From Puniceicoccaceae bacterium 5H (GTDB taxonomy: Bacteria; Verrucomicrobiota; Verrucomicrobiia; Opitutales; Oceanipulchritudinaceae), in the NCBI GenBank assembly GCA_009772895.1, contig WOUP01000015.1, positions 1 to 64,000 of the forward strand: a stretch of 64,000 bases of DNA, given 5' to 3'. A program made the position numbers and the translations under genes. Numbering within the stretch: position 1 is the first letter of the stretch; the number at the start of each line of letters is the position of its first letter. Below are positions 48,350 through 58,576 of the stretch, piece by piece. The notes below the pieces were generated by a model. It was given only the letters and a program-made list of their open reading frames with translations. It was not told the origin of the DNA and did not search any database.

Positions 48350-48619
48350 ATGTCACGTTCACTGAAAAAAGGTTTCTACGTTGACCCCGGTCTCTGGGAC
48401 AAGGTGCTCGCCGCGCAGGACAAGGACGACAAGCGTCCCATCAAGACCTGGTCCCGCCGCTCGACGATCACCCCGGAGTTCGTCGGTCTGAATCTCGACG
48501 TGCACAACGGCAAGGGCTTCGTCCCGGTGCACGTTACCGAAAACATGGTTGGCCACAAGCTGGGTGAATTCTCGCCCACGCGCACCTTCAAGGGTCACCA
48601 GCCGCACTCCAAGAAGTAA
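48350..48619 (+). CDS. rpsS: 30S ribosomal protein S19
   Basis: 89 residues. S19 pairs with S13 in the 30S head. [32 protein letters not shown] and [14 protein letters not shown] mark the family. No Shine-Dalgarno site (gttaccagaa). Confidence 0.97.
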
Positions 48620-48639
48620 CTTTCGCCTCCTAGCAAGCC

Positions 48640-49026
48640 ATGGAAGTTAAAGCATCCCAACAATACGCGCGTATCTCGCCCAAGAAGGCCCGGGATATCG
48701 CCCGCGTGATCCAGGGCCGGCCCGCCCAGGAGGCGATCGACCTGCTCGAGTTCATCCCGCGCAAGGGCGCCAAGCTCTACCAGGAAGTTCTGAAGAGCGC
48801 CGTCGCCAACGCGGAAAACAATTTCAACCTGAATTCCGACAATCTGGTGGTGCGCTCCGCCGTGGCCGATCCGGGCCCCGCGTTCCGTCGCTTCCGCGCC
48901 GGCGCTCGTGGTTCCGCCAAGCCGATCCGCAAGCCCACCAGCCACCTGAAAGTCATTCTGGCCGAGAAGGTCCACGCGCATGATCACGACCACGATCATG
49001 ACCACGACCACGCTCACGCCCACTAA
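48640..49026 (+). CDS. rplV: 50S ribosomal protein L22 with His/Asp-rich tail
   Basis: 128 residues. L22 helps form the exit tunnel wall. The family core, YARISPKKARDIARVIQGRP to HLKVILAEKV, ends at residue 111. The last 17 codons (48973-49023) encode 9 His, 5 Asp and 3 Ala in alternation, a probable metal-binding tail that normal L22 lacks. The tail would lie near the tunnel exit or free in solution. No frameshift is seen; the stop is clean and rpsC follows after 14 nt. Confidence 0.96.
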   Translation: MEVKASQQYARISPKKARDIARVIQGRPAQEAIDLLEFIPRKGAKLYQEVLKSAVANAENNFNLNSDNLVVRSAVADPGPAFRRFRAGARGSAKPIRKPTSHLKVILAEKVHAHDHDHDHDHDHAHAH

Positions 49027-49040
49027 AACCCGCACGAACT

Positions 49041-53696: not shown

Positions 53697-54488
53697 ATGA
53701 GCGAAGAATCCAATCAACAACAGCAACCTGCTTCGCCGATCCGTGCGCCGCAGGCGCCGCAGGCGCCTCAGCAGCCGGCTGAAGGCGATATCGTGGCATC
53801 GCGCCCGACGCGCGAGCGCACGAGTGCCGTGGTGGGCAAGATCGACCGTCCTCTCGAGGAAAATGCCGGTGGCCGTGGTGGCCGCGGTGGTCGTGGTCGT
53901 GGCCCTGGTGGCCGTGGCCCCGGTGGTCGCGGTCCTGGCGGCGGTCGTGGCCCGGGAGGCCGTGGTCGCGGAGGCCCTGGCGGTCGCGGTCGTGGTGACC
54001 GTGGTCAACCTCAGCAACAGCAAGAGGAAGATACCCTTTTCGAAAAAGTCGTGCACATCAACCGCTGCGCCAAGGTCGTGGCGGGTGGCCGCCGCTTCAG
54101 CTTCTCCGCTCTCGTAGTGGTGGGCGACCAGGACGGCAGCATCGGTGTCGGCTACGGCAAGGCCAAGGAAGTGCCCGAATGCATCCGCAAGGGCACGGAG
54201 CGCGCCAAGAAGAACATGCGCCCGGTGGCCCGCAAAAACAACACCATCCCGCACCAGGTGCTCGGCGAGCACGACGGCGGCAAGGTCCTCCTCAAGCCGG
54301 CGGTGCCGGGCACGGGGGTGATCGCTGGCGGCGGCGTGCGCGCGGTGCTCGAAGCTGCGGGCGTGAAGGACGTGCTGACCAAGAGCCTCGGTTCCAACAA
54401 CCCGGCGGCCATGGTGCACGCGACGCTCGACGCGCTGAAGCAACTGCGCAGCCCGGAAGCGATCCGCGAGCTGCTCAAGGCCGAGTAA
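53697..54488 (+). CDS. rpsE: 30S ribosomal protein S5 with Gly/Arg-rich N-terminal extension
   Basis: 263 residues against about 165 usually. The S5 core begins near residue 114 ([15 protein letters not shown]) and contains [30 protein letters not shown] and [26 protein letters not shown]. The added N-terminus has a Gln/Pro/Ala-rich part (1-55) and a Gly/Arg/Pro-rich part (57-103) built of GGRG and GPGGRG units, like RGG RNA-binding regions. S5 sits at the mRNA entry, so the extension could touch mRNA. No better start exists inside the repeat, and the first ATG is 14 nt after rplR. Confidence 0.95.
53868..54005 (+). repeat. Tandem GGNCGNGGN repeats inside rpsE
   Basis: About 138 nt of short repeats of the type ggccgtggt/ggtcgtggc encode the Gly/Arg-rich part of S5 (residues 58-103). 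Such repeats change length easily between strains by slippage in steps of whole codons. Confidence 0.85.
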
Positions 54489-56693: not shown

Positions 56694-57512
56694 ATGATCC
56701 CCACCAAAAACCCAGAGCAGATCGAGAAAATGCGCGCGGCCTGCAAGATCGCCGCCAACGTGCTGGACCGCTTGTGCCAGATGGCCGAGGCGGGCGTCAC
56801 GACCTACGACCTGGACCAGGAGGGCAAGCGCCTGATCGAAGAGGCGGGTGCCGTCAGCGCCTGCTATAACTACGGTTTTGGCGACCACCGCTTCCCCGCT
56901 TATACCTGCCTCTCCGTCAACGACGAGATCGTGCACGGCATTGGCAGCATGAAGCGCGTACTGCAGGATGGGGACATCATCTCGGTCGACATTTCTCTGG
57001 TTTACGACGGCTGGATCGGCGACAACTGCCGCAGCGTCGGGGTGGGGCAGCTCGACGAGGATGCGCGCCGCCTGTTGGAGGTGACCGAAGAGGCGCTGTA
57101 TCTCGGAATCGAGGAAGCGCGCAGCGGCCACCGGGTCGGTTTCATCTCAAATGCGGTCGAGAAGTATGTGCGCCGCCAGCGCTACGGCATCGTGCGCGAG
57201 TTCGTCGGCCACGGCGTCGGGCGCAGCATGCATGAAGAGCCGCAAATCCCGAACTTTGGCTCTCGCAATCGCGGCGACTACCTGCGCCCGGGCATGACGC
57301 TCGCCATCGAGCCCATGATCACCGCCGGTCGCTCGGCCGTGAAGATGGACCGCGACGGCTGGACGGCCCGTACGAAGGACGGCTCCCTCGCCGCGCACTT
57401 CGAGCACACCGTGCTTGTCACCAACGGTGAGCCGGAGATCCTCACGTTGCCCGATTCCTGGAACGGCCAGGTGGTGCGGCAGTACGAAAGCAATGTCGCA
57501 AATAAAGGTTGA
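56694..57512 (+). CDS. map: Type I methionine aminopeptidase
   Basis: 272 residues. Map removes the initiator methionine from new proteins. Metal ligands are seen as Asp in SVDISLV and IGDNCRS, His in GHGVG, Glu in AIEPM and Glu in HFEHTVLV. The motif GFGDHRFPAYTCLSVNDEIVHGI binds substrate. The stretch GWIGDNCRSVGVG has Asn-Cys-Arg where many have DTSRTF, a mild change. No SecY-adk-map triplet: adk is absent. Map lies 70 nt after secY. Confidence 0.94.
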   Translation: MIPTKNPEQIEKMRAACKIAANVLDRLCQMAEAGVTTYDLDQEGKRLIEEAGAVSACYNYGFGDHRFPAYTCLSVNDEIVHGIGSMKRVLQDGDIISVDISLVYDGWIGDNCRSVGVGQLDEDARRLLEVTEEALYLGIEEARSGHRVGFISNAVEKYVRRQRYGIVREFVGHGVGRSMHEEPQIPNFGSRNRGDYLRPGMTLAIEPMITAGRSAVKMDRDGWTARTKDGSLAAHFEHTVLVTNGEPEILTLPDSWNGQVVRQYESNVANKG

Positions 57513-57538
57513 CTTTCTTGCACGTACTCCTCTCTATT
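57509..57538 (+). promoter_or_regulatory. Probable promoter for rpsM-rplQ
   Basis: TTGACT at 57509, overlapping the map stop codon, and TCTATT at 57533 are spaced by 18 nt. This is the best sigma-70-like pair found in the ribosomal block. The 103-nt gap to rpsM fits a separate transcript. Confidence 0.45.
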
Positions 57539-57615
57539 CACGATTTTCCCTTTTCGTCTCCTGACGAAGCCCCATTTTAGCACGTTTTTCCACTTCCACC
57601 CAGACACATTTAACC

Positions 57616-57987
57616 ATGCCACGTATTCTTGGGGTAGATATTCCCGGCAATAAGAAGATTCCGTATGCGCTGCGCTACATCTACGGTATCGGCCCCACGC
57701 TGTCCGATATGCTCGTAGAGGAAGCCGGTCTGGATCCCGACGCCCGCGCCCACACGCTGAGTGAGGAAGATCTGAACAAGATCGCCGAACTCGTGCTGCA
57801 AAAGGGTATCCGCGTCGAGGGCGACCTGCGTCGTGAGATCACCGCGAACCTGAAGCGCCTTCAGGCGATTCAGTGCCACCGCGGCATCCGCCACCGCAAG
57901 GGCCTGCCCGTCCGCGGCCAGCGCACCAAGAGCAACGCCCGCACGCGCAAGGGTAAGCGCCGCACCATCAGCGGTAAGAAGAAATAA
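57616..57987 (+). CDS. rpsM: 30S ribosomal protein S13
   Basis: 123 residues. S13 bridges the subunits and touches the P-site tRNA. PRILGVDIPGNKKIPYALRYIYGIG at the start and HRKGLPVRGQRTKSNARTRKGKRRTI at the end mark the family. rpmJ, usually before rpsM, is not present in the 103-nt gap. Confidence 0.97.
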   Translation: MPRILGVDIPGNKKIPYALRYIYGIGPTLSDMLVEEAGLDPDARAHTLSEEDLNKIAELVLQKGIRVEGDLRREITANLKRLQAIQCHRGIRHRKGLPVRGQRTKSNARTRKGKRRTISGKKK

Positions 57988-58027: not shown

Positions 58028-58576
58028 ATGAGCGAAGAACAAAAGAAGGAGCAGTCCGATAAGACTCCCGCTGCGGAAAAGCAACAAGCCACCGCAGCCG
58101 CCCCGGCCGAGGGCCAAGTCCAGGCCGAAGGTGCTGAGAAGGAAGAGAAGAAGTCCGGTCAGCCCACGGCGGCTGACCTGCTGAAGAGCGATGTCGACCT
58201 CAACGTTCGCAAGGCCAAGGGCTCCAAGAACGTTACCTCGGGTATCGTGAACATTCTCGCCACCTTTAACAATACGAAGGTCACCTTCTGCGATCGCAAC
58301 GGGAACGTCGTTTCCTGGTCGAGCGCTGGCAAGATGAACTTCCGCGGCAGCCGCAAGAGCACGGCCTACGCCGCCCAGGTGGTCACTCAAGACGCCGGCC
58401 GCACCGCCCTCTCGCACGGCATGAAGGAAGTGGAAGTCCGCGTGAAGGGCCCGGGCATGGGTCGCGACAGTGCGATCCGCGCCATCCAGAGCCTCGGCAT
58501 GAATGTCTCGTCCATCCGCGACATCACGCCGGTGCCCCACAATGGCTGCCGCCCCAAGAAGCGCCGCCGCGTCTAA
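58028..58576 (+). CDS. rpsK: 30S ribosomal protein S11 with acidic N-terminal extension
   Basis: 182 residues against about 129. The S11 core starts near residue 60 ([28 protein letters not shown]) and ends [14 protein letters not shown]-like [16 protein letters not shown]. The first 55 residues are low-complexity Lys/Glu/Gln/Ala ([20 protein letters not shown]). S11 lies on the platform where mRNA leaves. The ATG at 58028 is well placed 40 nt after rpsM; no internal ATG sits at the core start. Confidence 0.95.

Follow-up and report, generated by a model that had tools for sequence, protein, structure and literature searches.

The ribosomal protein uL22 encoded in this genome continues, past a complete conserved core, into a short tail composed only of His, Asp, and Ala, and a homologous tail occupies the same place in the one congener that we examined. 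The explanation that we tentatively favor is a selected metal role, in which the tail serves as a low-affinity, high-copy metal buffer carried on every ribosome. The features needed for the argument are given below, with positions counted in the window (the whole stretch of DNA that was analyzed, 64,000 nucleotides).

48640..49026 (stop included), + strand: rplV, ribosomal protein uL22, 128 amino acids (PF00237, E 5.5e-35; the best solved relatives are bacterial L22 chains)
48973..49023, + strand: His/Asp/Ala C-terminal tail of L22, 17 codons, HAHDHDHDHDHDHAHAH (read from the sequence; low AlphaFold2 confidence)
48979..49011, + strand: HDHDHDHDHDH stretch without a break, which includes the published model peptide HDHDHDHDH (read from the sequence; PMC11938343)
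49041..49682, + strand: rpsC (S3), the next gene, starting 14 bases past the rplV stop (PF00189, E 5.3e-35)
56694..57512, + strand: map, methionine aminopeptidase (M24 metallopeptidase), farther downstream within the ribosomal gene cluster that holds rplV (PF00557, E 9.4e-49)

The identity of the protein is well supported. Its core is the full PF00237 domain (residues 5-107 against positions 1-103 of the 104 in the profile), and rplV lies between rpsS (S19 by PF00203) and rpsC (S3 by PF00189) in an S10-type ribosomal cluster; both the coverage of the whole domain and this position place it in the uL22 family. Pfam confirmed the identity of every one of the 19 other ribosomal genes that run from S10 to L15, and the 14-base gap between rplV and rpsC recurs in the congener (genome G055). 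In the AlphaFold2 model the last core strand spans residues 101-109, after which come KV and then the tail, with 9 His, 5 Asp, and 3 Ala and a TAA stop at 49024-49026. An earlier note, made from the letters alone, had described a 17-codon tail of this composition after a complete L22 core, and it was right to the exact coordinates and letters. Mean pLDDT, taken over blocks of ten residues, is 92-97 in the core, 51 for residues 111-120, and 54 for residues 121-128, and because of the low values in the last two blocks the tail is probably disordered. No Cys occurs among the 128 residues of L22, so the protein holds no Cys-based structural zinc site.

The composition of the tail is far from that of its neighbors. 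The 19 neighboring ribosomal proteins of the cluster (S10 to L15) contain 59 His among 2853 residues, and against that frequency the binomial probability of at least 9 His in 17 residues is 1e-11. Only one other site in the window has 6 His in 15 residues (in stop-to-stop frames of at least 40 codons), and it lies antisense to the Gly-rich part of rpsE. It should be noted that the DNA of the tail is an imperfect tandem repeat (periods of 6, 12, and 18 bases, 78-90% matching), so that the question is one of the retention of an expanded repeat and not of random composition. The synonymous codons are mixed (7 CAC and 2 CAT for His, 3 GAC and 2 GAT for Asp), which, together with the imperfection of the repeat, indicates that the tail is not a fresh product of pure slippage. 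The antisense frame at 48595-49035 (- strand) was considered as a gene and rejected, given that it reads the repeat backwards as a Val/Met run and shows no gene evidence.

Extensions are present on three other ribosomal proteins of the window. S5 (53697-54488, + strand) has a long N-terminal extension, Gln/Pro-rich and then with RGG/GPGGRG repeats, so that its Pfam domain begins at residue 116; the congener aligned over the full length (81.8%). S11 (58028-58576, + strand) has an N-terminal extension of ~70 residues, and L17 (60335-60916, + strand) an Ala/Glu-rich C-terminal extension of ~70 residues.

The genome (G000; 4.10 Mb, 40 contigs, 98.6% complete) has a single L22, and L22 is present in all 17 of the family genomes examined. 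The congener carries a His/Asp tail of 19 residues at the same place, ending in PAHDHHHDHDHDHNHAHAH. Thus, in the examined set, the tail occurs in both genus genomes and in 0 of the 15 other family genomes, whose L22 proteins end in, for example, SSN, AEDSKTANT, GE, AANN, or AAEPVEEAKA. This is the pattern of a lineage-restricted His-rich tail following a complete conserved core, as in HspA (see below), found here in 2 of 17 family genomes. For a wider view, L22 tails were collected from 194 loci, yielding 155 distinct proteins (152 with the stop inside the locus), of which 71 came from 80 contigs spread over several phyla and 84 from order and class genomes. At least three His after residue 108 were found in just two of the 155, both from this genus. 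A profile search of the order matched the L22 core in 333 of 372 genomes, with tails taken from the best 30 loci and some later stretches. In the class, 364 of 384 genomes were matched (a sample that does not contain G055), and among the matches listed only G000 reached residue 128. The relatives compared include Puniceicoccales and Opitutales records (L034, L087). As far as L22 proteins were read in this non-exhaustive census, the tail is confined to the genus.

The earlier note had taken absence of the tail from all close relatives as the sign of a local slippage accident. The sole congener examined has the tail, and a one-genome accident is ruled out by the homology of the two tails and by a synonymous codon pattern that is largely common to both species, from which it also follows that the tail has not been recently re-homogenized.

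Divergence between the two species was used to ask how freely the tail has changed. Over the 111 core codons of L22, 71 are identical, 21 differ synonymously, and 19 nonsynonymously (pS 0.31, pN 0.10). Three gap placements tie as the best; in the one used here, 13 of the 17 tail codons are identical and there is one 2-codon indel; 8 of the 9 His, 3 of the 5 Asp, and all 3 Ala are matched. Nonsynonymous differences number 3 in 43 sites (pN 0.07), or 2-4.5 over all placements. Fourfold sites across the cluster differ at 482 of 1452 positions (0.33), at which rate a neutral tail would show ~14 differences; the binomial probability of so few in a freely drifting tail is 5e-5, and the tail of this one species pair is thus not diverging at a near-neutral nonsynonymous rate. 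However, the 17 codons that close each of the 19 other ribosomal proteins also change little (pN 0-0.144, with the maximum in the L15 tail, likewise gapped), and in genus g2 the L22 tails, which are not of the His kind, are conserved as well, although the g2 species are closer together (core pS 0.22-0.25). The tail is therefore constrained as other ribosomal-protein ends are, and not demonstrably more so. Because a single species pair amounts to one evolutionary event, and because other protein ends are constrained too, low divergence does not by itself decide function.

What the tail could bind is best judged from a published peptide identical to its nine-residue core. At pH 7.0, HDHDHDHDH (acetylated and amidated) has Kd values of 1.77e-7 M for Zn, 6.27e-6 M for Fe(II), and 8.41e-5 M for Mn, and of the six peptides measured it holds Fe(II) most tightly (PMC11938343); the parts of that paper available to us give no Ni affinity. 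The tail is thus very probably capable of binding metal ions, judging from this peptide chemistry. The earlier note had called the composition metal-binding-like, an impression that the peptide bears out and that agrees with the His-tailed UreE and the HDH-bearing CobW-family and cation-efflux proteins of the same genome.

Whether such a site would be filled in a cell can be estimated from the buffered availabilities reported for aerobic E. coli (Mn 7e-6, Fe 1.9e-6, Zn 2e-12, and Ni 1.3e-13 M; PMC9434800, as far as the available text goes). We modeled the tail as a single site with the peptide constants and three competing metals; because this moves E. coli values to another organism and 9-mer constants to a 17-mer, the resulting figures are a guide only. 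With those values the computed occupancy under aerobic conditions is 22% Fe, 6% Mn, and 0.001% Zn, with 72% empty; under anaerobic conditions it is 9% Fe and 10% Mn, with 81% empty; and after peroxide it is 21% Fe and 41% Mn, with 38% empty. The suggestion in the earlier note of a ribosome-bound zinc store or sensor is accordingly unsupported at normal conditions, in that almost no Zn would be bound at E. coli availability, and a zinc store or sensor at rest is disfavored. These estimates agree better with weak buffering of Fe/Mn, or with a sponge that takes up Zn or Ni in excess.

The selected metal role that we prefer would work as follows. The tail would be an extension of uL22, specific to the genus, probably disordered, and exposed to solvent, that weakly binds divalent metal ions; at rest it would be partly filled with Fe(II)/Mn(II), and surplus Zn or Ni would be soaked up by it. 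The existence of the tail, its inheritance within the genus, its absence in the relatives examined, its low divergence, and its predicted disorder come from the present analysis. The literature contributes metal binding by the identical core peptide, solvent exposure of a uL22 extension in another species, and the docking of an enzyme on L22. In Cutibacterium acnes, the C-terminal extension of uL22 projects into solvent (PMC10085706), and uL22 is among the proteins surrounding the tunnel exit (PMC5071890); in the part of the source available for each statement, the C-terminal helix of peptide deformylase (PDF), an Fe(II) enzyme, docks near the exit on L22, where methionine aminopeptidase (MAP) competes with it for an overlapping site (PMC8712518). 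Each genus genome has one match to deformylase, with a basic C-terminal segment. The tail may also act locally on these two metalloenzymes where they dock next to L22. That whole ribosomes bind metal in vivo, and that the cell gains from it, is what we infer beyond these observations. A narrower version, in which a ribosome-tethered metal ligand near the exit feeds Fe(II)/Mn(II) (or Ni) to docked PDF or MAP, or to emerging metalloproteins, is a long shot; if it were true, metal handling would be built into the ribosome at the birthplace of proteins.

The genome offers some context for a metal role. A codon search for HDHxHxH gave 14 hits in it, and besides L22 the motif occurs in frame in five proteins. 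One is a CobW-family GTPase, two are cation-efflux proteins, one is a P-type ATPase that has heavy-metal-binding domains, and the fifth is a DUF2492 protein, whose function is unknown; of the remaining frames, two are without a Pfam match and one is antisense to the ATPase. Together with the contrast between the two genus genomes and the other family members, the low nonsynonymous divergence, the published Zn/Fe(II)/Mn binding (PMC11938343), and the solvent exposure of the C. acnes extension (PMC10085706), these five proteins argue for the buffer. Against it stand the low divergence of other ribosomal-protein ends in what is one event, the weak affinities of the peptide (with which the predicted site would stand 72-81% empty without stress in an E. 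coli-like cell and 38% empty following peroxide), the placement of rplV in a ribosomal cluster, and the low-complexity extensions that L22 often carries elsewhere.

These last extensions lead to the most serious competitor. L22 C-termini in the wider class are in many cases long and Lys/Ala/Glu-rich, and at least 15 residues follow residue 111 in 22 of the 155 distinct proteins, the two genus proteins included (19 from the order and class genomes, among them both genus proteins, and three from the contigs of several phyla). The C-terminus of L22 is a permissive site, and what is unusual here is the composition and not the extension itself. Since other L22 C-termini are often extended by low-complexity sequence, extra tails are evidently tolerated, and a CAYGAY repeat may have expanded once in the ancestor of the genus at this permissive end, with no selected function and with metal binding only incidental. 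We consider such a functionless tail almost as likely as a selected metal role. The imperfect 6/12/18-base repeat, the 2-codon indel between the species, and the wide variation in the length of L22 tails elsewhere all agree with it. The 3 nonsynonymous differences where ~14 are predicted (2-4.5 by other placements), the retention of 8 of 9 His, and the shared codon pattern do not. The neutral growth that the earlier note offered as its alternative is thus weakened by the low divergence, and yet survives as a rival of nearly the weight of the metal buffer.

The other explanations are less probable. The tail could be a nickel buffer for urease, part of a genus nickel supply beside UreE, UreJ, and NikR. 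Both genus genomes have a urease cluster with Pfam-scored urease alpha, UreE with a His-rich tail, UreD, a UreG-type GTPase, HupE/UreJ, and NikR (UreF was scored in G055 only), and the UreE of G000 has a conserved PF05194 core and the tail GHHHHDHDEGHHHHHPHKPHGHG. Urease alpha is unmatched in 14 of the 17 family genomes, some of which are incomplete; the three that have it are the two genus members and G139, a member of the same family whose L22 is tail-less, and a strict link between tail and urease is therefore not upheld. NiFe hydrogenase and HypA, as further nickel users, gave no match in either genus genome, and two species again represent one event. We regard this reading, which overlaps with the broader metal role so that the two probabilities are not exclusive, as improbable. 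Rather unlikely, too, is a selected role without metal, in which a polyampholyte tail shifts its charge near neutral pH and tunes factor docking, assembly, or packing at the solvent face. Three of the five His of HDHDHDHDH have pKa values from 6.90 to 7.98 (PMC11938343 Table 2), and the docking of PDF on L22 in competition with MAP (PMC8712518), both taken from the available parts of the sources, speak for it, as does the basic C-terminal segment kept in the PDF of the genus; the tail, however, has no Lys or Arg, whereas many other long L22 tails are Lys-rich. Least credible of all is an effect of the repeat on the folding of the rplV-rpsC junction in RNA and not in protein. A small hairpin is predicted in both species, but the folding barely beats shuffled sequence (z -0.43 and -0.80, with 67 and 37 of 200 shuffles as good or better), and RNA structure at this junction was rejected on that basis.

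Some further observations concern metal-related genes. The urease clusters of both genomes (G000:C19, locus L256, and G055:C19, locus L257) adjoin genes for a putative urea ABC transporter (by eye). L36 is without a CxxC pair in both genus members and in five other family genomes where the sequence was read, a form that we take to be the zinc-free type; tail-less family members are alike in this respect, and so it was rejected as a peculiarity tied to the tail. No rpmJ (L36) was seen between map and rpsM (window 57512-57616), and the sole L36 match is on another contig (G000:C13, loci L248 and L258), beside an L31-like frame without a CxxC pair. In the congener, a 103-residue open frame (L167, G055:C22) has CxxC pairs and a C-terminal HVHDHGHGHA tail. 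It has no family match above the cut-off, and from its sequence may encode a small metal-binding protein. A TonB-dependent receptor of the congener (L163, G055:C1) has a long HDHDHDH run, with a second His-rich stretch ~200 bases off.

If the L22 tail is metal-loaded in the cell, there would be one weak site per ribosome, at a copy number that few proteins equal, adjoining the docking place of metalloenzymes that act on nascent chains, and the ribosome would buffer metal by means that do not involve zinc ribbons. A functionless tail would still be a clean natural case in which a highly conserved protein has acquired and fixed a low-complexity motif.

Zinc-ribbon ribosomal proteins (L31, L36, L33, and S14) and their zinc-free paralogues make up the ribosomal zinc reservoir, which has in common with the proposed buffer the idea of metal held on the ribosome; the sites of the reservoir are structural and Cys-based, whereas L22 has no Cys. 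The same protein with an extension at the same end is known from C. acnes and M. smegmatis, where the extension projects to solvent but is longer (43 amino acids in C. acnes), and the available part of the source does not mention metal binding (PMC10085706). Within the same cell, UreE likewise has a His-rich C-terminal tail, although on its own PF05194 core in the urease cluster. Alternating His and Asp at a C-terminus are also found in mycobacterial PacL1, whose motif, DLHDHDH, follows a disordered region. According to the parts available of the study in question, the peptide W-DLHDHDH binds Zn at micromolar affinity (~6 uM) and does not bind Mn, and the motif is needed only at high zinc; PacL1, however, a small membrane protein that pairs with a zinc exporter, has no relation to L22, and the same source notes a His-rich C-terminal region in actinobacterial GroEL1 (PMC9374683). 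The closest likeness is to HspA (GroES) of Helicobacter pylori, a universal housekeeping protein that likewise ends in a short C-terminal extension rich in His. HspA is a co-chaperonin, and its extension is His/Cys-rich, metal-binding, and dispensable for viability; it binds nickel and serves hydrogenase maturation, and the gene is NikR-regulated (PMC3856676, in the part available). The L22 tail, unlike that of HspA, sits on a ribosomal protein, contains Asp, and has no Cys. Among the matches listed in our search of the open-access literature, by title, we found no described His-rich tail on L22 or on any other ribosomal protein. The tail belongs to a known kind, the lineage-specific His-rich extension of a housekeeping protein as in HspA, on a ribosomal carrier that appears to be new within the literature searched.
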